From Thermosipho japonicus (lineage in GTDB: Bacteria; Thermotogota; Thermotogae; Thermotogales; Fervidobacteriaceae): 64,000 nt of DNA. The notes under the pieces are model-generated. The model was not told the DNA's origin, searched no databases, and saw nothing but the letters and a program-made list of their open reading frames with translations. This document shows, one piece after another, positions 1,102 to 35,294 of the stretch. The stretch spans positions 186,001-250,000 of the forward strand of contig NZ_JACHEX010000002.1 of assembly GCF_014201655.1 (NCBI RefSeq). The letters run 5' to 3'. Within the stretch, counting starts at the first letter, position 1. Each line of letters opens with the position of its first letter. The position numbers were made by a program, and so were the translations under genes.

Positions 1102-3022
1102 TCTTCTCACCCTTTAATTCATATAATTTTAACGGCATACTTTTTCCTTTAACACGATATTCTCCAAGAAAAATAAATTCAAATTTTTCTTTTGCAAGTT
1201 TATAAACACTTTCAGAAACAATTATATTTGCTGGCAGTTCGCGCGTTAAGTGTTCTATCCTTGAGCAAGTATTAACAGTATCTCCTATGCTCGTATAATC
1301 CATTCTAAAAGGTGCTCCAATGTTACCTACAATTGCTGGGCCGAAATGAATTCCTATACCGCTATCCAAATCTATATTATTCTCACTGTTAAATTTTCTT
1401 AATTCTTGTCGCATCTCAAGTGCACATTTTAAAGCCCTTTCAATATCATCCTCAAAACTAATTGGTGCACCAAAAACAGCCATTATGGCATCTCCAACAA
1501 ATTTATCAATTGTCCCGTTGTATTTATTTTTTATTATGTCACTCATTCTGGTTAAATAACTATTTAACAACTCAACTAATTCTTTTGCATCAAGTTTCTC
1601 AGAAAGGCTTGTAAAGCCCTTTATATCTGAAAAAAGTACAACAATATTTCTTGTCTCTCCACCAAGTGTTAACTTTCCACTTTTTATCAAATAATCAGCT
1701 ACATTATCTGGAACATATCTATATAGATATTCTTTGATTTTCTTTTTTTCTTTATTCTCTTGAATAAGATTCTTTGAAATGTTTGTAGTACTTAAAATAA
1801 TACAGGAAACTACCGGAAAAAAGCTATCTAAATATATCTGATTTAAGAATAACATATATGAAACAAGGAAAATTAATGGTACAGAAAGAAGAGCCAAAAT
1901 GTTTATTTTTATATTTTTTGATCTTGAAAACAAAAGAACATAAATAATTGCTAATGTAGTAAATAATAACCTTAACCAAGTTGATGCTCTAATTAAAGTG
2001 TCACCTAATAGCATATTTTGAATAGCAGTTGCATGAATATAAACTCCAGGCGTATTATTTGAAAATGGAGTTATTCTAAGGTCATACAATCCTTTGGCAG
2101 TTGCAGTATAACCAATAATCACAATTTTATTTTTAAAAATATCTTTATTAAAATTCCCAGTTTCAATATCATAAAAAGAAATTTCTTTAAATATATTATT
2201 TCCATAATAAAAAATCTTAAAAAGACCATTTGAATCAAAAGGAATTTTTAAATCTTTTATTTCAACTATTCTTTTGTCAAAATCAACTATTAAATTTGTC
2301 AAATCTGCATTTTTAAACATTGCAACTGCCAAAACATCCATATGAGGTAAAAATCCTGAAGAAATTCCCATTTCATTGGCCCATAACTCCTTAAAAAACA
2401 AAGGTAAACTTCTTACTACTCCATCTACATCTATTTCACCGATTTCATATGTTGCAGAAGGAACAAGTGATGAAAACTTCAATATAGGAGGGCGAACTTT
2501 GTAAATTTCAATAGGTTGTATGAAATCTAGGCTTTTAAAATTTTTCATTTTGTAGGTATAATTTAGGTAAGTAATATTGTTTTCAAGTTTTTCTTTGATC
2601 TTTTCATTGTACTTTTGATATGTATCTTTTTCATTTATCAGATAGGTACCTAAAATCACATTTTTGTATTTTGAAATAATACTTGCAAAATAATTATCAT
2701 ACATTGGATTTGTTTCATCTTCTTCTGTAAAAGACACATCAAATACAATAACTTTTGCCCCAGCATTAAATAAATTCTTAACAACCTTTCCATAGTGATG
2801 TCTAGACCACGGCCATACATCCTTTTCTGCTTCAAGAGAAGTTAAAGAATACTCATCAATCCCAACAACTACAATGTCAGGAGATATATTAACTGAACCC
2901 CTTATTCGATAAAACAGATCCATAATTTTTAATTCAAAAAAATCTATAAATGGTACTTGAAACAACAAGAATAAACCATAAACAATAATAAAAATCACTG
3001 ACAAATAATATAATATTTTCAT
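1094..3022 (-). CDS. CHASE2-domain adenylate cyclase (class III)
   Basis: 642 residues. An N-terminal signal-anchor helix leads into an extracytoplasmic CHASE2 sensor (about 25-340), then a cluster of membrane helices (about 345-420) and a C-terminal class III cyclase domain (about 450-642). The catalytic set is complete: metal Asp in FSDIKGF (466) and in VGDA (511), adenine-selecting Lys507 and Asp581 (TSIGD), and the transition-state pair Asn584/Arg588 in NTCSR. It should make cAMP from ATP in response to an external signal. There is no clear ribosome binding site before the ATG, but TGTGGTAAAAT ends 6 bases upstream, which suggests a leaderless transcript. It sits behind flagellar genes and before a degenerate HD-GYP gene. 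Confidence 0.9.
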   Translation of the reverse strand: MKILYYLSVIFIIVYGLFLLFQVPFIDFFELKIMDLFYRIRGSVNISPDIVVVGIDEYSLTSLEAEKDVWPWSRHHYGKVVKNLFNAGAKVIVFDVSFTEEDETNPMYDNYFASIISKYKNVILGTYLINEKDTYQKYNEKIKEKLENNITYLNYTYKMKNFKSLDFIQPIEIYKVRPPILKFSSLVPSATYEIGEIDVDGVVRSLPLFFKELWANEMGISSGFLPHMDVLAVAMFKNADLTNLIVDFDKRIVEIKDLKIPFDSNGLFKIFYYGNNIFKEISFYDIETGNFNKDIFKNKIVIIGYTATAKGLYDLRITPFSNNTPGVYIHATAIQNMLLGDTLIRASTWLRLLFTTLAIIYVLLFSRSKNIKINILALLSVPLIFLVSYMLFLNQIYLDSFFPVVSCIILSTTNISKNLIQENKEKKKIKEYLYRYVPDNVADYLIKSGKLTLGGETRNIVVLFSDIKGFTSLSEKLDAKELVELLNSYLTRMSDIIKNKYNGTIDKFVGDAIMAVFGAPISFEDDIERALKCALEMRQELRKFNSENNIDLDSGIGIHFGPAIVGNIGAPFRMDYTSIGDTVNTCSRIEHLTRELPANIIVSESVYKLAKEKFEFIFLGEYRVKGKSMPLKLYELKGEKNV

Positions 3023-3028
3023 ACTACA

Positions 3029-3039
3029 ATTTTACCACA
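3029..3039 (-). promoter_or_regulatory. Candidate extended -10 for a leaderless cyclase mRNA
   Basis: On the minus strand TGTGGTAAAAT ends 6 bases before the cyclase ATG, so transcription would begin at or next to that ATG. The same TGTGG element precedes the -10 of acpP (22491-22501) and of recJ (36553-36563). No good -35 is seen. It lies in the short gap after the methyltransferase gene. Confidence 0.35.
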
Positions 3040-3045
3040 TATTAA

Positions 3046-3696
3046 TCAAAAATATACTGGTACATCAATTTCAAAATGCATTCCCCCATTTTTACGCCCT
3101 CTTATTGCAATTAACTCTGCTTTTTTGCCATATGCGATACACATCTGCTGAGGTGTTAATCTATATTTTAAAAGGATGTTGTTAAACAGAGGAAAAATAT
3201 AAGGTGCAACAACTGTCACAAAAGTTCCTCTATTTCTCAACAAAAAAGAAGCAGATGATATAAAAATTTCTAAAAGTTCTTGATTGGATTTTCTTGAAAT
3301 CTCCCTTATTTTATTTTCAGAGCTAGAAGAAAAATGGTAAGGTGGATTAAAAACTACCATATCAAAACTTTCCGCTGAAAAATGCTTTTTTACATCTTTA
3401 AGATCTAAGTTAAAAAAATCTACATTAGAAACATTATTTAACTCTATAGCCTTTACTGAAGCATTAAAAAGTTCTTTTTGTACTTCAATTCCCGTAACTT
3501 TTAAGTTATAATACTTCGAAAGTCCAAAGCTTACAAACCCAGTTCCGCTACCCAACTCACATACATTCTTAATGTCACTTGTTGGCAGTGAATACCACAA
3601 AAGAAATACCGACGCATGCGTCGGCTTATGTCCATCAATATCAATAGTTTTAATATCCCTTCCAAGATTTTTATCAAATGGTGGTAGTTTAATCAT
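3046..3696 (-). CDS. TrmN6/YfiC-like N6-adenine methyltransferase
   Basis: 216 residues, a compact Rossmann SAM-dependent methyltransferase. ELGSGTG (47-53) is the SAM-binding motif I and NPPY (117-120) is the catalytic motif of amino-methyltransferases that modify adenine N6. Overall pattern, including the N-terminal KPTHAS stretch and the late basic RGRKNGG loop, is that of COG4123, the tRNA1(Val) A37 methyltransferase family. The substrate is inferred from the family. Its ATG overlaps the flgL stop in an ATGA, so it is translated with the flagellar genes although its role is presumably tRNA modification. Confidence 0.75.
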   Translation of the reverse strand: MIKLPPFDKNLGRDIKTIDIDGHKPTHASVFLLWYSLPTSDIKNVCELGSGTGFVSFGLSKYYNLKVTGIEVQKELFNASVKAIELNNVSNVDFFNLDLKDVKKHFSAESFDMVVFNPPYHFSSSSENKIREISRKSNQELLEIFISSASFLLRNRGTFVTVVAPYIFPLFNNILLKYRLTPQQMCIAYGKKAELIAIRGRKNGGMHFEIDVPVYF

Positions 3697-4580
3697 GACA
3701 CAAAATCAACCAAAGTTTTTTGTAATACCTGTGCAGCTGATTTTAAAGCAGCTTGAAGAACGGATTGTTGCATAGAAAGATCCGTTAAAACCTTTGTAAG
3801 ATCTGCATCTTGCTCCTTTGAAAGATATTCAGTCATAAACGTATCAATATCTGTTAACCTTGAACTTACCAACTCTAATGTACGGGAATTTGCACCTATT
3901 TGAGCAAATACTTCCATCGTAGAATTTTCTAATAAATTTACTTCCTTTAAAGTAATATTTGAAAGCTTTAAACTATCTCCTTCTCTTAATGCATTTATTG
4001 CATCATCTATAACTGTAAATGCGTCCTTTCCATTTTCTAGCTTGAAAACATCGTAAACGGTTACTCCATACTCAATTGTAAACCCCATAGCATTTACTTT
4101 TCTTTTTATATTTGCATCAGGAGGAGTTTGAATTTTTCCGTTTTCAACAGGCTTTAAATCACTTCTTGCACCACCAAATATATACTCACCACCAAGTTGC
4201 GTATTTGCAATATCTTCAAGATGTTCTTTTAATTTTTCAAGTTCCGAAGCTATTGCTTCTCTTTCAGCAGCATCATTCGTCCCATTAGCTCCTCTAACAA
4301 TAAGTTCTTTTATTCTATGATACACATTTGTAAGTTCTTGTATGGTAGAATCATATATATTCACAAAGTTTTGGGTATGCTCAACATTCCTCTTAAACTG
4401 TTTTAATTCCCTCATACGACTGGAAATATTAGAAGCTCTTGTAGCAACTACTGCGTCATCACTAGGATAGGAGACTTCCTTTCCTGAAGAAAGCTTATCA
4501 TGTAGCTTTGAAATTCTATACAAACTATGTTGTATATTAAATAATGTTCTTTCATTGATCATTCCATTTGTTATTCTCAT
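3693..4580 (-). CDS. flgL: Flagellar hook-associated protein 3 (hook-filament junction)
   Basis: 295 residues with a flagellin-like layout: an N-terminal helical segment (about 1-135) containing the KLSSGKEVSYPSDD pattern typical of FlgL/flagellin, a central region, and a C-terminal helical segment ending in the hydrophobic tail QKTLVDFVS. FlgL forms the second layer of the junction between hook and filament. It follows flgK by 12 bases in the expected flgM-flgN-flgK-flgL order, with a GGGAGGG ribosome binding site. Length is usual for the family. Confidence 0.95.
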   Translation of the reverse strand: MRITNGMINERTLFNIQHSLYRISKLHDKLSSGKEVSYPSDDAVVATRASNISSRMRELKQFKRNVEHTQNFVNIYDSTIQELTNVYHRIKELIVRGANGTNDAAEREAIASELEKLKEHLEDIANTQLGGEYIFGGARSDLKPVENGKIQTPPDANIKRKVNAMGFTIEYGVTVYDVFKLENGKDAFTVIDDAINALREGDSLKLSNITLKEVNLLENSTMEVFAQIGANSRTLELVSSRLTDIDTFMTEYLSKEQDADLTKVLTDLSMQQSVLQAALKSAAQVLQKTLVDFVS

Positions 4581-4592
4581 TTAAATCCCTCC

Positions 4593-7136
4593 CTATCTTC
4601 CTACAACTCCTAGTCTATCAATAACCCTACCTATCATTTCATCAACAGCAGTCATCACCCTTGCAGAGGCATTAAATGCATGTTGAAACTTTATCATATT
4701 TGCCATTTCTTCATCTAATGAAACACCTTTAACTCTTTCTCTTTCATTGCTTATATCTTTCATTATAATATCCGTATTATCTTTCATCTTCATCGCTGTT
4801 TCACCTTCGACCCCCATTTCGGCAACAATTCCACCTAAATATTCTGCAAAACTCTCTCTTCCATCATTTAAGATCTTTTCAAAACGCATTTTTGAAAGAA
4901 TTTCCATAATTGCTGTATTAGCCTGACCTGTTGGGGTAAATACTTTCGCATCCCAATTTGTGTTATCCTCTATTTTACCATAATCAACTGCAATAGTTTC
5001 AGGATTAACACTCACGGTTGAATTTACATTAAACTTTTCAACAAACCTAAAAGGCTCATTAGGGGTTAACTTATCTATAAAAAGTGTATCAGCTTTTGCA
5101 AATCTCTCTCTTAAAGACTTTGGCTCGTCAAAAGGATTTAAAAATACATAATCCTCATTCCAATCGTTTGTCGGATCAGAATCTGCATCTATAAATCCTA
5201 ATTTTACAAATAATGCCTCTGGTCCTTTTATTGTTTTATCAATTTTAAAATTCATGGACCTTGTCCCTCTAATTACAAATTTATTGTGAGGTGTAACATC
5301 AAACAAAATACCTGTTCCAACCTCATTCAATTTATCTGCAAGTTCTTTTAATGTAGTTTGAGTCGGATCAATCTCAATACTTGTAGCACCTATTGTTATC
5401 TTAAATGGTGAGGTGTGATCTAGAATATTATCCAAAGTTTCTCTGCTCGTATCTAATGCCTTATATGTTTCGACATGAAGATTTGCTTGAGTAAATAGCC
5501 CATTTGAATCTTCTATATTAACTAAATTTCTATCAAAATTATTATTTTTTGTAGGAATTATCAAAAGCTTATTATTATATACAACTGCTTTTACATCGGA
5601 TGAAAAATTGGAATTAATATCGTTTGCAAGGTCATTAATCGTATATCCACTTGTTACATTTATATTAGCCTCAGTGCCGTTAATTTTTATTTTGTAAGTG
5701 CCTTCTTGAATATTAAACTCTGATTGGTTTATCACGTAAATATCAACATCTTTAGTATTAAAACCCATAGTATTGAACATATTTCCATTAAAATCTAATG
5801 CAAGTGTATCTTTCAAATTGTTTGTATTACTTGTCATTCTAAGTAAATAAGTAGAGCTATTGTGAAGCGCTGTTTCAAAGTTAAACCACAGTCCACTTGA
5901 TGAAACAGTATTCATAAAATCCTGGATGGTATCTCCAGCATTCACCGAAATTGCCTGGGCATTGCTTGAACCATCAAAAAATACAATTGCACCCTGATCG
6001 ATAAATTGTTTTGTTGTTATATCGCTCAAATTATCCCTATTTGACATCCCCGAGATATACTTTATAGGTCCACCTTCAACCCTCTTTGATCCTGCTATTC
6101 TAAATAACACAGAATTTTCTATATTATCAGCTGTCATTTCATTAAAGAAATTTAAACCTGTTACACTTCCATCAGAGTTAAATCCATCTTTGTGAATCAA
6201 ATTAAATTTATCAGTTAAGTAAAGAACAAATTCATCAAGTCTATTCATATATTTGACTATTATATTATCCCTTAAATCAATAGCTGCCTTCAAACTTCCA
6301 TCATGTATATCAACCTTTGAATTTCCCACAAAAATTTCTTTAAATCCTTTTCCATATGGTCTTTCTAGAGCTCTTAACTCATTAACATCACTACCTGTCA
6401 ATACAATCTGATCACCTATTCTTAAAGATATTTGACCTGATGCATCTTCAGTATAAAAAATATCAGCAAATTTTGATAAATCATCTAAAATTCTATCTCT
6501 TTCATCCAAAAGATCATTTGGTGTAGATTTCAACGCCATAGAAAGTCTAACCTTCGAATTTATATCAGCAAGTCTTCTTACCATTCCGTTTATTTGCTCA
6601 ACTCTTTGAGATATCTCATAGTCAAGATCCTCTCTTAATTGTTCGAGTCTTGAATACAAATCTTTTACATTTTTAACTAATTCTTCCGCTCTACTTACAA
6701 GCTCCCGCTTTGCTGCACTATTTGTTGGATCAGTAATAATTTCTTCCATACCAGACCACATCGAATCAAAAAGATACCTAATACCTGAATCTCCAGGTTC
6801 AGCAAAAAGCTGCTCGACAAAATGCATATTTGCAGTAATTGAATCCCAATAATTGTATTTGTTATTCACTTGTCTGTATTGAATATCTAAAAACTCATCT
6901 CGTATTCTTTGAATATCTTTTACCTTTGAGCCCGTACCAATCTGTAAAGGAATGGAAGGTTGAGTAAGCGTTGTAGCAGGTATTGGAGGCATTGTCCTAA
7001 TAATTGGAACCTGCCTTGAAAACCCGGGGGTATTGGCATTTGCTATATTATGTGAAACCACATTCATTGCAAGTTTACTAGTATAAACTCCTAATAATCC
7101 TGTATTTAAAGCCCCAAAAAGGCTAATATCTGGCAT
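4593..7136 (-). CDS. flgK: Flagellar hook-associated protein 1
   Basis: 847 residues, far longer than the roughly 550 of enterobacterial FlgK. The conserved ends are present: an N-terminal rod-like segment (ALNTGLLGVYTSKLAMNVVS, then NIANANTPGFSRQ) and a C-terminal segment (GVSLDEEMANMIKFQHAFNA, then ARVMTAVDEM). The extra length is in the exposed middle, about residues 330-720, where several beta-rich repeats resemble the FlgK/FliD insert domains (for example INDLANDINSNFSSDVKAV). It makes the first junction layer on the hook. Ribosome binding site GGAG is upstream; the gene follows flgN. Confidence 0.95.
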   Translation of the reverse strand: MPDISLFGALNTGLLGVYTSKLAMNVVSHNIANANTPGFSRQVPIIRTMPPIPATTLTQPSIPLQIGTGSKVKDIQRIRDEFLDIQYRQVNNKYNYWDSITANMHFVEQLFAEPGDSGIRYLFDSMWSGMEEIITDPTNSAAKRELVSRAEELVKNVKDLYSRLEQLREDLDYEISQRVEQINGMVRRLADINSKVRLSMALKSTPNDLLDERDRILDDLSKFADIFYTEDASGQISLRIGDQIVLTGSDVNELRALERPYGKGFKEIFVGNSKVDIHDGSLKAAIDLRDNIIVKYMNRLDEFVLYLTDKFNLIHKDGFNSDGSVTGLNFFNEMTADNIENSVLFRIAGSKRVEGGPIKYISGMSNRDNLSDITTKQFIDQGAIVFFDGSSNAQAISVNAGDTIQDFMNTVSSSGLWFNFETALHNSSTYLLRMTSNTNNLKDTLALDFNGNMFNTMGFNTKDVDIYVINQSEFNIQEGTYKIKINGTEANINVTSGYTINDLANDINSNFSSDVKAVVYNNKLLIIPTKNNNFDRNLVNIEDSNGLFTQANLHVETYKALDTSRETLDNILDHTSPFKITIGATSIEIDPTQTTLKELADKLNEVGTGILFDVTPHNKFVIRGTRSMNFKIDKTIKGPEALFVKLGFIDADSDPTNDWNEDYVFLNPFDEPKSLRERFAKADTLFIDKLTPNEPFRFVEKFNVNSTVSVNPETIAVDYGKIEDNTNWDAKVFTPTGQANTAIMEILSKMRFEKILNDGRESFAEYLGGIVAEMGVEGETAMKMKDNTDIIMKDISNERERVKGVSLDEEMANMIKFQHAFNASARVMTAVDEMIGRVIDRLGVVGR

Positions 7137-29256: not shown

Positions 29257-29285
29257 TTAAAACAGACCAGTATATATGATAAAAT
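29257..29285 (+). promoter_or_regulatory. Promoter of the corrinoid-GGDEF operon
   Basis: TTAAAA (29257-29262), 17 bases, TAAAAT (29280-29285), with an extended TG at 29277. It is 32 bases before the first ATG. Confidence 0.5.
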
Positions 29286-29317
29286 AATTTTTGAAAATAA
29301 TAGTTTGGAGGAATGTG

Positions 29318-29974
29318 ATGAACAATATTTCTGAAAAACTCTTAGAATATATGCTTGAAGGAAATAAAGTAATGACTGAAAAATTGTTCAAAGATATTTT
29401 TAATAAAAAAGATGCTCTTGTCTTCACTGAAAAAATCCTTACTGAAGTCATGGACAAGGTCGGTATAATGTGGGAAGCAGGTGAAATTTCTCTTGCACAG
29501 TATTATCTGATTGGTATTATTGCAGAAGAAATGGTAAATAAATGTTGCAAAAATAATTGTGAATCAAATGATGAAAAAAAACAAAATAATTTAAATATCG
29601 CAATCGTTACTTTGGAAGATTACCACGGACTTGGTAGAAAAATAGTTCTATCATTTTTGAATTCAGCAGGTTTTGTAGTTAAAGATTATGGTATTGGAAG
29701 AAAGGTTGATGAAGTTGTCAATCTTTCAGTTAAAGATAAAGTTGATATCTTGCTGGTATCTACATTAATGTTACCCGCTGCTTTGAAAGTAAAAGATCTA
29801 ACCGAAAAATTAAAAGAAAAAAATCCAGAAATAAAAATAGTTGTTGGAGGTGCACCTTTTAAAATTGACAAAAGTTTGTGGAAAGAGGTAAAAGCAAATG
29901 AATTTGGTGAAACAGCAACTGATGCAGTAAAAATCGTAAAAAGGATGGTAGAAAATGAAAAATATAACATCTAG
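29318..29974 (+). CDS. Corrinoid (B12)-binding protein, MtbC/MtaC-like
   Basis: 218 residues from the ATG at 29318, six bases after GGAGG. Residues 1-80 form the helical cap found in methyltransferase corrinoid proteins (LTEVMDKVGIMWEAGEISLAQ). Residues about 92-215 are the B12-binding Rossmann domain with the base-off motif D101-x-H103-x-x-G106 (DYHGLG), then LLVSTLMLPAA and VVGGAP. The His should ligate cobalt from below, as in methanol and methylamine corrinoid proteins. First gene of a three-gene operon; its end overlaps the next gene by 20 bases. Confidence 0.93.
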   Translation: MNNISEKLLEYMLEGNKVMTEKLFKDIFNKKDALVFTEKILTEVMDKVGIMWEAGEISLAQYYLIGIIAEEMVNKCCKNNCESNDEKKQNNLNIAIVTLEDYHGLGRKIVLSFLNSAGFVVKDYGIGRKVDEVVNLSVKDKVDILLVSTLMLPAALKVKDLTEKLKEKNPEIKIVVGGAPFKIDKSLWKEVKANEFGETATDAVKIVKRMVENEKYNI

Positions 29975-30983
29975 AGAAAGAACATTAAAAGCATTGTCAT
30001 ATAAAGAGCCAGATAAAGTACCACTCTTTTTAGCCTTCACATTTTATGGCGCAAAAGAGCTTGGTATAACAATAAAAGAATACTTTTCAAAGTCAGAAAA
30101 TGTTGTATATGCCCAAAGAAAATTAAGAGAAAAATATAATCATGATTTTTATTATGTATTTTTCTATGCTTCTCTTGAAATAGAAGCATTTGGAGGAGAA
30201 AGTATATTTATTGACAATGGCCCTCCAAATGCAGGAGAACCTATTATTAAAAAACTTTCAGATATTGATAACTTAAAAATCCCAGATGTAAGAAATTCTT
30301 TTGTCTTGAAGAAGGTTTTTGAGACTGAAAATGCATTAAAAAACACCGATATCCCTGTTATAGGGGTTATAATTTCTCCATTTTCACTTCCAATAATGCA
30401 AATGGGATTTGATAAATATATAGAATTAATATATTTTCAAAGAGATTATTTCTGGAAATTAATGAGAAAAAACATGGACTTTTCATCAAATTTTGCAAAC
30501 ACACAATTAAAAGCTGGTGCTGATATAATTGTATATTTTGATCCTCTTCTATCAACAGAAATGATGCCCAAAAAAGTTCTTAAAGAAACTGGTTTTTTAG
30601 TTGCAAAAGAAATGTTTAAAAAGATTGCAGGCCCTATTGCCATACATATGGCATCTGCTAGAGTATCAGATTCTGTAGAAGATATTATTGATCCAAAAGT
30701 AAGGGTAGTGAGTTTTGGAACAGACGATGATATAGAAAAACTAAAAGAAACTTTTAAAGGAAAAATTGCATTCGTTGGAAATCTTGATGGCATATCAATG
30801 AAACATTGGACAGTTAAAGAAGCTAAAGAAAAGGTTAAAAAATTAATACTAAAAGGTGCAAAAGGAGGAGGATTTATAATAGGTGATACTCATGGTGAAA
30901 TTCCATGGTATGTGAGTGAAGAGGTATTACTTTCAATTTCTGAGTCAGTACAAAAATATGGGACATATCCAATAAGAGGGTGA
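29955..30983 (+). CDS. MtaA/URO-D-fold corrinoid methyltransferase-like protein
   Basis: 342 residues with the uroporphyrinogen-decarboxylase fold (start SRERTLKALSYKEPDKVP, then VIGVIISPFSLPIMQMGFD and FVGNLDG). Next to a corrinoid protein this fold usually acts as a methylcobamide:acceptor methyltransferase (MtaA/MtbA/CmuA). In those enzymes zinc is held by H-x-C and a later Cys. Here the first site reads HMAS (His231, Ala233) and the later one GDTHGE (no Cys), so the usual zinc-thiolate site is absent. It may use another metal site, bind a ligand only, or act on a non-thiol acceptor. Function is inferred from fold and neighbours. Confidence 0.85.
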   Translation: MKNITSRERTLKALSYKEPDKVPLFLAFTFYGAKELGITIKEYFSKSENVVYAQRKLREKYNHDFYYVFFYASLEIEAFGGESIFIDNGPPNAGEPIIKKLSDIDNLKIPDVRNSFVLKKVFETENALKNTDIPVIGVIISPFSLPIMQMGFDKYIELIYFQRDYFWKLMRKNMDFSSNFANTQLKAGADIIVYFDPLLSTEMMPKKVLKETGFLVAKEMFKKIAGPIAIHMASARVSDSVEDIIDPKVRVVSFGTDDDIEKLKETFKGKIAFVGNLDGISMKHWTVKEAKEKVKKLILKGAKGGGFIIGDTHGEIPWYVSEEVLLSISESVQKYGTYPIRG

Positions 30984-30988
30984 AATAA

Positions 30989-32425
30989 TTGGAAAGAATT
31001 ACTTTCCTTATCTGTGAAAATTTTAGAAAAGAGTTTGAAACAGTATCTAAAAAGCTAAATGAAAAAATTGATATTATCACTTTCCCTTCTTTTTGTACTT
31101 TAAAAAAGGAAAATAGAAATTATAAAATAAAAGAGAAACTTTTAGAAAGCAAGAATTTAGTTATTTTTTGTTGTAAGTTTTGTGATATCTTAAAAAAGAT
31201 ACCAGAAAAATATTTAAATCAAATAAAGCTATACAAATTTGAAAACTGCTTTTACATGTTTGGAAAAACAAATATAGATAAATATCTTAGTAAAGGTGCA
31301 TATCTTGTAACTCCAGGATGGCTTGTTAGGTGGAAAGAAAATTTATCCTCATATGGTTTTGATAAAGAAACTGCACAAAGCTTTTTTAAAGAAATCACAA
31401 ATAAAATAGTCTTATTAAATACAAAAGTTGAAAAGAATATCGAAACTATATTAAAAGATTTTTCAAATTTTCTTGAATTGCCTTACACTATAGAAGACAT
31501 AGGACTTGATTATTTTGAACTTTTAATAAATAAAATTTTGGCAGAAATAAAAGCTGAAAAGAAAATAAAAGAACTTACTATAGAAAAAAGTAATTACATG
31601 GCAGCTTTCAATATTTTATCGAGAATATCAAGTTCAAAAATTGAGAAAGAAGATGAACTAATAAGTATAATAGTTGATCAAATTAAAATATTACTTTCTC
31701 CAGAAATAATAGAATATTTCCCATTTGAAGGAAATGATATTCTAAAAGGAGATGAATATAAAATAAACAATAACATTGAAATAATCGTAAAAATCAAATA
31801 CAACAATGAAATATATGGATTTTTAAAAGTTGGAAAATTTTTGTTCCATCAGTATTTTGATTCATACGTAAACTTTTTGGTAACTATCAAAGATGTCCTC
31901 GGACTTGCCATTTCAAATGTAAGAAAGATTGAAAAAATTCTAAACTTGGCAATTACTGATGCACTAACAGGTATATACAACAAAAACTATTTTGAATTAA
32001 AACTTTCAGAGGAAATAAATAGGTGTAAAAGGGAAGGAAAAACTTTTTCACTAATAATGTTTGATCTTGACAACTTTAAAGGAATTAACGATAAATATGG
32101 TCACCACTTTGGTGATAAAGTTTTAATTAAGGTAGCAGAAAAAGTCCAAAAAAGACTTAGAAAAACTGACTTCTTTTTTAGATGGGGTGGTGACGAATTT
32201 CTAATCATATTGCCAAACACTAATTTAGAAAATGCTGAAAAACTATCTAAAGAGCTTAAAAAAATTATTAATGAAATAAAAATTAAAAATGAAAAACTAA
32301 AAGCTAGCTTTGGAGTTGTAAGCTATAATGGCAAAGATGATCCTGAAGCAACCTTTAAAAAAGTTGATGAAGTTTTATATAAGGCAAAACAATCAGGAAA
32401 AGATAGAATTTGTGTTTACAAATAA
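30989..32425 (+). CDS. Diguanylate cyclase with DUF1638-like and GAF domains
   Basis: 478 residues from a TTG. Residues 1-165 resemble DUF1638, a cysteine-containing domain found beside corrinoid methyltransferase genes (ENCFYMFG, then KGAYLVTPGWLVRWKENL). Residues about 185-320 are GAF-like. The C-terminal GGDEF domain is complete: LTGIYNKNYFE, FDLDNFKGINDKYGH, and GGDEF at 400-404. The inhibitory site RKTD (391-394) lies exactly five residues before GGDEF, so product feedback is likely. It should make cyclic-di-GMP from GTP under control of the N-terminal domains. Five bases separate it from the methyltransferase gene, so one operon. Confidence 0.88.
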   Translation: MERITFLICENFRKEFETVSKKLNEKIDIITFPSFCTLKKENRNYKIKEKLLESKNLVIFCCKFCDILKKIPEKYLNQIKLYKFENCFYMFGKTNIDKYLSKGAYLVTPGWLVRWKENLSSYGFDKETAQSFFKEITNKIVLLNTKVEKNIETILKDFSNFLELPYTIEDIGLDYFELLINKILAEIKAEKKIKELTIEKSNYMAAFNILSRISSSKIEKEDELISIIVDQIKILLSPEIIEYFPFEGNDILKGDEYKINNNIEIIVKIKYNNEIYGFLKVGKFLFHQYFDSYVNFLVTIKDVLGLAISNVRKIEKILNLAITDALTGIYNKNYFELKLSEEINRCKREGKTFSLIMFDLDNFKGINDKYGHHFGDKVLIKVAEKVQKRLRKTDFFFRWGGDEFLIILPNTNLENAEKLSKELKKIINEIKIKNEKLKASFGVVSYNGKDDPEATFKKVDEVLYKAKQSGKDRICVYK

Positions 32426-32453
32426 ACAGCTCCCGATCGGGAGCTGTTTATTT
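32420..32453. terminator. Bidirectional terminator overlapping two stop codons
   Basis: Near-perfect palindrome of about 34 bases centred on 32436/32437 with core CAGCTCCC / GGGAGCTG. It includes the stop codon of the GGDEF gene (32423-32425) and reaches the first base of the fhs stop (32453-32455). Confidence 0.88.
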
Positions 32454-34108
32454 TATGATAGCCCGATTATATTTCCTTCTTCATCAATGTCTATATTAAC
32501 CGCATTTGGAATTTTTGAAAGCCCTGGCATTCTCATAATGTCACCGGCAAGTGCTACTATAAATCCTGCACCAGCTGAAAGTTCAAAGTCTCTTATTGTA
32601 AAAGTATAACCAGATGGTGCATTAATCTTTTTTGGATCATCAGAAATACTTGATTGTGTTTTTGCAACAATTACCGGTAGTGTATCATATCCATGCTTTC
32701 TTAAGAACTTCAATTTACTTTTTGCTTTATCGGTATAAATCACGTTCCCTGCCCTGTAAATTTCTTTTGCAAGTGTTTCAATTTTCTCCTCAAGACTCAT
32801 TTCAGAAGTTATTAAAGGTTTATACTGAGCTTCTTTTATGTTTTCAAGAACAAGATTTGCTAAATCAATAGCACCTTCTCCGCCCTTTTCAAAGGCATAA
32901 ACAAGTGCATGAGGAATTTCACAATTCTTTGAAAATTCATCTAATTCTCTTTGTGTATCACTTCCAAACACATTAAGAGCCACTACAACTGGAACGTTAT
33001 ATTTTTTCAAATTTTCAACATGAACTCTAAGATTTTCCATACCTTTTAACATAGCTTCAACATTTTCTTTGTCAAGCTCATCTTTCTTTACACCACCATG
33101 GTATTTTAAAGCTTTTATTGTAGCAACTACAACAACTGCATTTACATCGTAACCTGCTGTTGGTGAAACAAAATCAAGAAACTTTTCCGCACCTAAATCT
33201 GCTGCAAATCCTGCTTCTGTTACTACATAATCAGAAAGCTTTAATGCTAATTTTGTTGCAATTATACTATTTGTTCCATGGGCAATATTTGCAAATGGCC
33301 CTCCGTGTACAAATGCAGGTGTATTTTCAATTGTTTGAACAAGATTAGGTTTAATGGCATCTTTCAATAAAACTGCAAGTGCTCCTTCAATTTTTAAATC
33401 TTTTACTTTAATAAGCTTTTTGTCATAACTTTGAGCTACAACTATATTTGAAAGTCTTTCTTTTAGATCCTTAAGATCTTTAGCAAGACACAAAATAGCC
33501 ATAATTTCAGATGCAGCAGTAATTATAAATCCATCTTCACGTGGTTGTCCATTTGCACTTCCTCCAAGACCTACAACTATATTTCTAAGAGCCCTATCAT
33601 TCATATCCATGGTTCTTTTCCAATATATACGAGTGGGATCAATTCCAAGCTCATTTCCAAACTTTATATGTGCGTCTATTACTGCTGATATCAAATTATG
33701 AGCCGCTGAAACTGCGTGTATATCGCCGGTAAAATGAAGATTTATATTCTCCATCGGGAGAACTTGAGAATAGCCACCCCCAGCAGCCCCTCCTTTAATT
33801 CCAAATACCGGACCAAGTGATGGCTCTCTAAGTGTTACTATTGATTTTTTTCCGAGTCTATTTAACGCCATAGAAAGTCCTATACTTGTTGTTGTTTTAC
33901 CTTCTCCGGCTGGGGTTGGTGTCATTGCAGTTACCAAAATTAACTTTCCATCTTTGTTATTTTTAACTTTTTCCCATATTTTTAAATCAACTTTTGCTAT
34001 GTACTTTCCATATGGCTCTACATATTCTTCTGGTATGTCTATTTTTTCTGCTATTTTTGTTATTTTCTCCAATTTTGCTTCTCTTGCAATTACAATATCA
34101 GTTTTCAT
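32453..34108 (-). CDS. fhs: Formate-tetrahydrofolate ligase
   Basis: 551 residues from the ATG at 34108 (AAAGGAGTG six bases before). P-loop [10 protein letters not shown] (about 67-76), [22 protein letters not shown] and FTGDIHAV are family landmarks. It makes 10-formyl-THF from formate, THF and ATP, feeding purine and fMet synthesis. Its start overlaps the histidine kinase end by 11 bases, in the operon that begins at 36379. Confidence 0.97.
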
Positions 34109-35294
34109 CTTTTTCACTCCTTTCAACTACAAATGTGGTATATTTATCATCCTTAATGTAAATATTAAGCCCCATTTGATCACAAAGTTTCTTTACTATA
34201 TATAGTCCTAATCCATGACCTTTAGATTTTCTCGACTTATGAAATTTCTCAAATATCCTTTCTTTTAAATCATTGCTTATACCTTCTCCATGATCTGTTA
34301 CTTCTATTCTGCCTTGGTACAATTTTATCTCAATAGGTGCTTTCCCATGATATATAGCATTCTCAACTAAATTTTTAATTACAATCTCTAAAGCTTCTTT
34401 ATTGGCCAAAATTGTTCCATCTCCGATTATTTTAATTTTACTATCTTTATATCCTACTACTATCCCTTCAACTAGTGTTCTCAAATTAATTTGTTCCATA
34501 TCAAGTTCCAGATTTTTTGAAAGTAATATCATATTTTCAACCAAGTCTTTCATCTGTTTGGAAGTTTGAGAAATAGAATCTATAGCCTCTTTTAAAATTT
34601 GTTCATCTTTGTGACCCCATCTTTCAAGCATTTTCGAATAACCTATTAAGTTCGCTATCGGGGTTTTTAATTCATGAGATACATTTGAAACAAATTCTTC
34701 TTGAAGTTTGTAATTTTTTTCAACACGATCCATGAGTTCGTTAAATTTTTCAACAAGCTCATCTACCTCATCATGAGTATTTGGTTTTATAAATCTATAA
34801 CTTAAATTATCGCCTTTGATTTTTGAAAGCTCGCTGACAAAATTTCTTAAATGTTTTGTTGACTTCTTTGTTATAAAATATGTTAGAAAACTAATAAGTG
34901 ACAATGAAATAACAAAAATATACACAAAAATTTTCTTTATGTTATTTAAGTAATTTACTATAGGAGTAATATCTTTTCCAACTATCAAATTTTCTGCTTT
35001 TAAAAAAATGTAAGTTCTACCATTAATTTCAAACTTTCCTATTTTATTTATTGGCCCAATTTTGTAAGGATCAACAATAACAACCCCATCTTTTGAAATA
35101 TAAATATCATTTTTGGGATTGTGCATCCTTCCCATGGGTGTAATAAGCCATGGTCTAACACTTTCAATTAGATCTTTTTTAGTCGACTGATAGATCATTA
35201 ACCGAATACTTGAGTATAAAAGAATTAAAACTATTGCCATTGTAATAGCTGTAATAACAGTAGTTATATAAGTTACTTTAGATGAAATACTCAT
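34098..35294 (-). CDS. Membrane sensor histidine kinase, no adjacent regulator
   Basis: 398 residues: TM1 (about 9-33), extracytoplasmic loop (about 34-118), TM2 (about 120-142), HAMP (about 143-195), dimerisation helix with phospho-acceptor His207 (VSHELKTP), and an ATPase domain with N box [16 protein letters not shown] and GHGLGLYIV. All catalytic motifs are kept. No response regulator is in the window; the partner must lie elsewhere. ATGA overlap with hslO. Confidence 0.93.

Follow-up and report, generated by a model that had tools for sequence, protein, structure and literature searches.

Described corrinoid systems and the locus analysed

The known roles of corrinoid methyltransferases are metabolic, and signalling by vitamin B12 (cobalamin) is known from riboswitches and light sensors. 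Here we analysed a three-gene locus in a 64,000-nucleotide stretch of Thermosipho japonicus DNA (contig NZ_JACHEX010000002.1, positions 186,001 to 250,000; the whole stretch is called the window and its 1.9 Mb genome G000), which encodes a corrinoid protein (CP), a protein of the URO-D superfamily and a DUF1638-GGDEF protein. Judged from sequence comparisons, these genes very probably form a dedicated corrinoid signalling cassette, a reading carried by the constant linkage of this CP/URO-D pair to interchangeable signalling genes.

In the methyltransferase systems MtaABC, MttBC, MtgBC and Cdm, a CP with a DxHxxG motif likewise stands beside a partner of the URO-D/MtaA superfamily, and DUF1638 genes have been tied to such systems in the literature. 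The cassette differs from them by having no MTTB (in the window genome) and no recognised acceptor methyltransferase, by the loss of the zinc cysteines and by its constant signalling gene. The nearest arrangement seen, compared by description only, is the mec cassette of dichloromethane fermenters, where a histidine kinase (MecA), a CP (MecB) and a URO-D protein (MecC) lie side by side, together with a receiver (MecD). As published, MecA has a PocR domain that may bind the substrate. However, the mec cassette also holds MecE and MecF, proposed in the available part of the source to be catalytic enzymes with MecB as their CP (PMC9768040). Excerpts of two reports describe what MecC and MecI do as unclear or unexplained (PMC9768040; PMC10344839); MecA to MecD could be a sensor of the kind proposed here, placed beside its enzyme.

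CarH and the photocobilins resemble the cassette in that a B12 domain controls an output, diguanylate cyclases included. In those proteins, however, the B12 domain is fused to its output, works with adenosylcobalamin and light, carries an EH element and has no methyltransferase partner, whereas the cassette consists of separate genes and lacks the EH element. MetH reactivation in Phaeobacter, which involves a RamA-like protein and DUF1638, is a case in which DUF1638 works with a separate CP, but there it is a stand-alone protein of methionine synthesis, whereas in the cassette it is fused to a GGDEF domain or a histidine kinase. No described system of this composition was found in the open-licence PMC literature.

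Organisation of the cassette

The features of the locus are as follows (window coordinates; aa, amino acids):

29318..29974, + strand: stand-alone CP with cap and Rossmann domain, 218 aa (open reading frame; Pfam B12-binding and B12-binding_2; kin to MttC, MtmC, MtaC and MetH B12 domains)
29618..29635, + strand: DxHxxG motif of the CP, DYHGLG (alignment)
29955..30983, + strand: URO-D superfamily protein, MtaA/CmuA-like, without the zinc cysteines (HMAS, DTHGEIP), 342 aa (Pfam URO-D; alignment to 4ay7; 28-row comparison)
30989..32425, + strand: output protein DUF1638 - GAF-like - GGDEF, 478 aa, TTG start (open reading frame; Pfam)
30989..31543, + strand: DUF1638 sensor half, about residues 1-185, with conserved C9, C36, C87, W111 and W115 (Pfam; alignments)
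31577..31942, + strand: GAF-like region, residues 197-318 (hhalign to Pfam-recognised GAFs of cassette proteins; no Pfam match)
31949..32407, + strand: predicted GGDEF diguanylate cyclase domain with WGGDEF and RxxD inhibitory site (Pfam; motifs)
32420..32453, no strand assigned: symmetrical intrinsic terminator (stem energy, z -8.2)

As an earlier reading made from the letters of the window alone (the sequence-only reading) had proposed, the coordinates place the three genes in a single tight operon on the + strand (29318-32425), with the URO-D start overlapping the CP end by 20 bases and a 5-base gap before the gene of the GGDEF protein.

Linkage of the URO-D subfamily to signalling genes

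The URO-D protein belongs to a subfamily of 25 loci plus the divergent G026, found in Thermotogota, a Chloroflexota-like class (this assignment is a guess), other bacteria and an Azoarcus megaplasmid. The line around the subfamily was drawn with a URO-D profile of 18 members without G026 and was set after the scores were seen. With this profile, the 25 loci scored 305-609 bits, G026 225, a truncated relic in G084 231 and 37 control loci 61-166; a profile built from Thermotogota only gave 267-510 bits for the cassette loci outside that phylum, 208 for G026 and at most 152 for the controls. G026 also fell on the cassette side of a well-supported branch of the URO-D tree.

At all 26 loci, a same-strand signalling gene, Pfam-confirmed in each case, lies downstream of the URO-D gene, encoding a GGDEF protein (17 loci), a histidine kinase (8) or an HD-GYP protein (1). 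The two genes are separated by a DUF1638 frame in L049 and L111, and by a second CP in L136 (G428, 1930-5840), a cassette with two CPs, the second of which stands before the kinase. The CP gene is directly upstream of the URO-D gene at 24 of the 26 loci; none was found in L111, and in L119 it is on the opposite strand. The G084 relic is the only subfamily member found to have no signalling neighbour.

Distant URO-D loci served as controls, namely all 35 distant matches of one URO-D search and one match from each of two others. None of the 37 had an adjacent signalling gene by GGDEF, histidine kinase and HD profiles, to which regulators of other kinds are invisible, and this includes the 11 that have a CP-like gene or domain; the kinases at control loci L165 and L095 lie about 1.8 kb and 3.8 kb from the URO-D gene. 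The flanking background was low, with 9 signalling genes among 259 other open reading frames around the 26 loci and 1 among 191 around the first 15 controls.

Mapped onto the URO-D tree, the GGDEF label has to change three times and the kinase label four times; at least two and at least three of these changes, respectively, are imposed by well-supported branches. This comparison indicates that outputs are swapped while the CP/URO-D input is kept, which makes a sensor module likely, unlike an accessory of a methyl-transfer pathway. Overall, the sequence-only proposal of a corrinoid module feeding cyclic-di-GMP (c-di-GMP) stood in one part: coupling to a signalling protein is well supported, but c-di-GMP synthesis is not the general output, as 9 of the 26 loci have a kinase or HD-GYP protein.

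Distribution of the cassette

The half of the output protein outside the GGDEF domain matched 9 of 103 Thermotogota genomes searched. One match, in G034 (E 2e-4, internal stops), was dropped as spurious, since phmmer found neither CP nor URO-D nor output in its 12 kb. In the eight true genomes, which belong to four families, the CP, URO-D and DUF1638-GGDEF genes kept the same order and strand (8/8), and the gene-trio synteny that the sequence-only reading had named as a test was found at every Thermotogota locus with a DUF1638-GGDEF protein. Its further expectation of synteny without catabolic methyltransferases also agreed with the data, MTTB genes being present in 2 of the 25 cassette genomes searched (Azoarcus was not among these). 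Identities for CP, URO-D and output were 72, 78 and 61% between G081 and G040, which is of another family, against 52, 62 and 45% between G081 and its genus-mate G082; since G081 is closer to G040 in all three, the genes share a history apart from that of their hosts.

In plasmids, tblastn with the DUF1638-GAF half returned a single record, the megaplasmid of Azoarcus sp. KH32C, where CP and URO-D (46.5% identical) are followed by a kinase with a DUF1638 half and then by a hybrid kinase. The DUF1638 of this kinase scored 22.5 bits (cut-off 27), yet aligned over residues 3-310 at E 7e-16. Searches with the URO-D alignment reached other phyla: the subfamily occurs in 12 of 158 genomes of the Chloroflexota-like class, with DUF1638-GAF-GGDEF outputs in nine and hybrid kinases in three (DUF1638 fused in two, a separate frame in one), and in four more genomes the neighbours of CP/URO-D are histidine kinases with GAF or PAS domains and no DUF1638. 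In the thermotogote G026 (L049, 119-4082), the divergent CP/URO-D pair is followed by a free-standing DUF1638 gene and then by the HD-GYP protein, an operon in which the same kind of input is apparently coupled to c-di-GMP breakdown; this stand-alone DUF1638 had no match in plasmids.

The Azoarcus cassette has fae and formylmethanofuran (fhc) genes on one side and a pyrroloquinoline quinone (PQQ) methanol dehydrogenase on the other, with RuBisCO, tetrahydromethanopterin (H4MPT) and formate dehydrogenase genes further out. At this one locus, the surroundings point to a one-carbon (C1) signal. The region (NC_020548, 235000-305000; L058/L153/L154) is a plasmid island of methylotrophy and Calvin-cycle genes; the cassette sits at its centre, next to a free-standing HD-domain gene.

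Properties of the three proteins

The CP scored 59.7 bits for B12-binding (Pfam cut-off 32.1) and 38.9 for B12-binding_2 (cut-off 23), and fell below the NCBIfam cut-offs for MtaC, MtbC, MtgC and the corrinoid subfamily. It has the B12 cap, Rossmann domain and DxHxxG motif of methyltransferase corrinoid proteins; the motif, already named in the sequence-only reading, was confirmed by alignment and is kept at 24 of the 25 cassette loci having a CP, with E-x-H-x-x-G in G481. Its histidine is presumably the lower-axial ligand of base-off/His-on cobalamin. CP and output are separate genes at all 25 of these loci.

The URO-D protein has the URO-D fold of MtaA (150.2 bits, Pfam cut-off 23.9), and the URO-D family profile matched MtaA (4ay7) at E 1e-20; the NCBIfam cut-offs for MtaA were missed (TIGR01463, 91.3 of 235.4; MtaA_Meth, 64.9 of 400). 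At the zinc ligands of MtaA, which we take to be HxC ... C, the HIC of 4ay7 aligns to h-l-a, with alanine at the first cysteine and a histidine near the second. In a 28-row comparison, the first zinc cysteine was absent from all 26 cassette rows and the second from all 25 rows covering the site; a distant non-signalling relative, G680, keeps both (HIC and GC). Because both cysteines are missing, thiol methyl transfer of the MtaA kind is unlikely, and the plain MtaA reading of this protein, implied when it was first called MtaA-like, was rejected on these motifs. Conservation is otherwise high, with 40-51% identity across phyla and 61 invariant positions in the 18 core sequences; A233 and H313 belong to these, and H231 is nearly invariant. 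According to the available part of one report, CdmB, a metal-free (zinc-free) URO-D homologue, methylates a CP from chloromethane (PMC13222342), so that a URO-D protein that has lost zinc need not be inactive. The URO-D protein of the cassette may be the very substrate-specific methyltransferase whose absence the sequence-only reading had remarked on; with such a methyltransferase or receptor within the cassette, an outside one need not be invoked.

In the output protein, DUF1638 (PF07796) scored 36.6 bits at residues 78-178 against a gathering cut-off of 27, in agreement with the N-terminal domain recognised before. C9, C87 and W115 are present in 21 of 21 aligned sequences, W111 in 20 and C36 in 18, and C65 in 10 of 10 sequences of a smaller alignment; the conserved cysteines would be in keeping with a site for a metal or for redox chemistry. 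When the PDB was searched by sequence with the DUF1638-GAF half, the only matches were chance ones to viral hemagglutinin chains (best E 0.013), which were rejected. The GAF domain claimed earlier has no Pfam match in the window protein, but hhalign aligned the region to Pfam-recognised GAFs of cassette proteins over 50 columns (probability 89.9%, E 1.7e-6). Control alignments gave 0.1% for histidine kinase, GGDEF and CP, and 11.7% for DUF1638, whose alignment overlaps the region by 9 residues. The DUF1638 and GAF-like half is common to the GGDEF and histidine kinase versions. The GGDEF domain (161.4 bits, Pfam cut-off 23.8) carries WGGDEF and, as inhibitory site, RKTD, both as first read; with these motifs kept, it is a predicted diguanylate cyclase. 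GG(D/E)EF is found in 16 of the 17 cassette GGDEF proteins (SGDEF in G006) and RxxD in 14.

Excerpts of one report state that Phaeobacter DUF1638 mutants are rescued by methionine and that DUF1638 tracks a RamA-like reactivase across alphaproteobacteria, and in them the finders of this role make no specific functional proposal (PMC5764234). In Ruegeria pomeroyi, DUF1638 is grouped with the reductive recharging of cobalamin in the text available (PMC12478193). If DUF1638 is a CP partner, its fusion to a cyclase or kinase would give a direct route from the state of the cobalt to the output.

Proposed mechanism

The explanation that we favour, at somewhat better than even confidence, is a self-contained corrinoid-based signal-transduction cassette in which the CP would carry cobalamin. 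The zinc-less URO-D protein would be the methyltransferase or receptor of the CP and move a methyl or other C1 or alkyl group between a small donor and the cobalt. DUF1638 of the output protein would dock the CP, a part that DUF1638 proteins are believed to play when MetH and methyltransferases are reactivated, and would sense whether the cobalt is methyl-Co(III), Co(II) or Co(I). The GAF-like domain would pass this state to the fused output, a diguanylate cyclase here and a histidine kinase or HD-GYP protein elsewhere. Docking, the sensed signal and the direction of control are what we infer here, including methylation state as signal and DUF1638 as reader, both suggested by the sequence-only reading. 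The chance that the output reports an alkylation state which a small donor imposes by way of the URO-D protein is about even.

As the same CP/URO-D pair stands beside interchangeable signalling proteins in bacteria that are not related, bacteria may sense small carbon compounds by B12 chemistry. We are evenly divided on a wider version, a general class of bacterial chemoreceptors whose input is a corrinoid methyltransferase pair. In it, a dedicated B12 protein would be alkylated by a small methyl or C1 donor, and DUF1638 or GAF would read the cobalt and convert its state into c-di-GMP, phosphorylation or c-di-GMP breakdown, with outputs freely swapped in evolution. If true, second-messenger and two-component signalling would gain a new kind of input, sensing by methyl-transfer chemistry, and the question of how methylotrophs and anaerobes perceive methyl compounds would have an answer that can be tested. 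In Acetobacterium dehalogenans, the regulation of methylated-compound conversion is largely unexplored, according to an excerpt of a 2026 paper (PMC13222342). DUF1638 would also gain a setting in which its action is measurable through an enzymatic output.

Weighing of the explanations

Several observations weigh against the favoured explanation. Common descent links the 26 loci, which do not count as 26 independent events, and the C1 surroundings come from the single Azoarcus locus. Three genomes of the window genome's genus have no cassette. In G081 (L016, 10238-11731), the output gene has one in-frame TAA between its DUF1638 and GGDEF parts, reflecting either a broken gene or a sequence error. 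In G084 (L050, 294-2121), the CP is intact, the URO-D match ends between residues 148 and 188 and is joined to sequence of a phosphoenolpyruvate (PEP) utiliser, and no cyclase was found on the contig; this copy has the appearance of either a broken cassette or a join made in assembly. In view of the G081 stop and the disrupted G084 copy, the cassette is dispensable, and its distribution is patchy. H231, a possible catalytic residue of the URO-D protein, is lost in 6 of 26 rows. DUF1638 is below the Pfam cut-off in Azoarcus, G007, G023 and G027 and absent at 4 of the 26 loci (G428, G509, G481 and G639), and therefore cannot be the universal reader; at those four, this task may fall to a GAF or PAS part. 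AlphaFold models from two sequences (window and L024) were poor, with mean predicted local distance difference test (pLDDT) values of 46 and 48. Lastly, RACo was found in 13 of 25 cassette genomes, where wider corrinoid chemistry is possible, and in none of the other 12.

An alternative explanation, which we consider unlikely but worth weighing, is that the signal would be either the corrinoid as such (availability or loading of B12) or the cellular redox state, registered through Co(I)/Co(II), and that the URO-D protein is a scaffold. The zinc cysteines are gone from that protein, and the invariant DUF1638 cysteines could be redox-active. Moreover, no CobS match was found in six of the eight GGDEF-cassette Thermotogota, which presumably import corrinoid; CobS is present in G000 and in its three cassette-less genus-mates. 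However, CobS is also present in 11 of the 12 cassette genomes of the Chloroflexota-like class, and B12 synthesis does not track the cassette. The invariance and cross-phylum identity of the URO-D protein go beyond the needs of a scaffold, and the Azoarcus cassette is surrounded by C1 metabolism. It is less probable still that CP and URO-D form a metabolic methyltransferase, catabolic or for methionine, with a signalling gene merely co-expressed or acting as a local regulator. Both proteins are similar to catabolic types, the 13 genomes with RACo would fit, and the dichloromethane mec cassette, as described in part of its report, mixes a histidine kinase, a CP and a URO-D protein with catalytic methyltransferases (PMC9768040). 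Against this stand the 12 genomes without RACo, the signalling linkage at 26 of 26 loci and the fusion of DUF1638 into the signalling protein in most of them. No folate or thiol acceptor methyltransferase was recognised beside the pair in neighbour lists judged by eye, without a systematic scan. In the window genome, neither RACo nor MTTB was found, and B12-binding_2 occurs solely in MetH and the cassette CP.

The CP profile also matches the solved GGDEF entry 8j2y, as would suit a cobalamin photoreceptor of the CarH or photocobilin kind that controls GGDEF or kinase proteins in trans, an explanation to which we give hardly any credence. At the place in the B12 cap where we take the EH element to lie, all 27 CPs have [ASTP]Q, and EH occurs elsewhere within residues 45-80 in 1 of the 27. 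The EH signature follows excerpts of a report in which photocobilins are said to join B12 domains to diguanylate cyclases (PMC11796333). Relatives of the host inhabit vents and oil reservoirs, as part of one report states (PMC6211235), and light sensing has no evident place for a methyltransferase partner. The light-sensor reading was rejected on the cap motif, its EH element being absent from its place.

Surroundings of the locus

For PilZ proteins, possible receivers of c-di-GMP, G000 has one match over the cut-off and one just under; no PilZ match was found in five cassette genomes of the phylum (G081, G082, G023, G027 and G026). At the Rfam gathering threshold, tRNA alone matched in the window, with no known riboswitch. 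The promoter proposed from sequence alone did not stand up: a scan of the window gave 25 sites against 25.3 expected in shuffles, no better than chance, and a promoter is therefore unsupported.

Elsewhere in the window genome (G000:C7, L023, 6814-9684), a 773 aa MetH has the homocysteine, pterin and B12 domains (Pfam) without the activation domain, and a separate 181 aa protein beside it resembles that domain (23.9 bits, cut-off 25), making a split methionine synthase.

The terminator read after the cassette was substantiated by a stem of 15 pairs (-22.9 kcal/mol, z -8.2). A consensus terminator scan of the window did not list it, probably since its T-run pairs inside the stem. It equally serves a convergent formate-tetrahydrofolate ligase gene, identified by Pfam. 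This ligase gene and a histidine kinase gene are convergent to the cassette both in the window (32453-35294) and in G082 (L015, 5510-8424).

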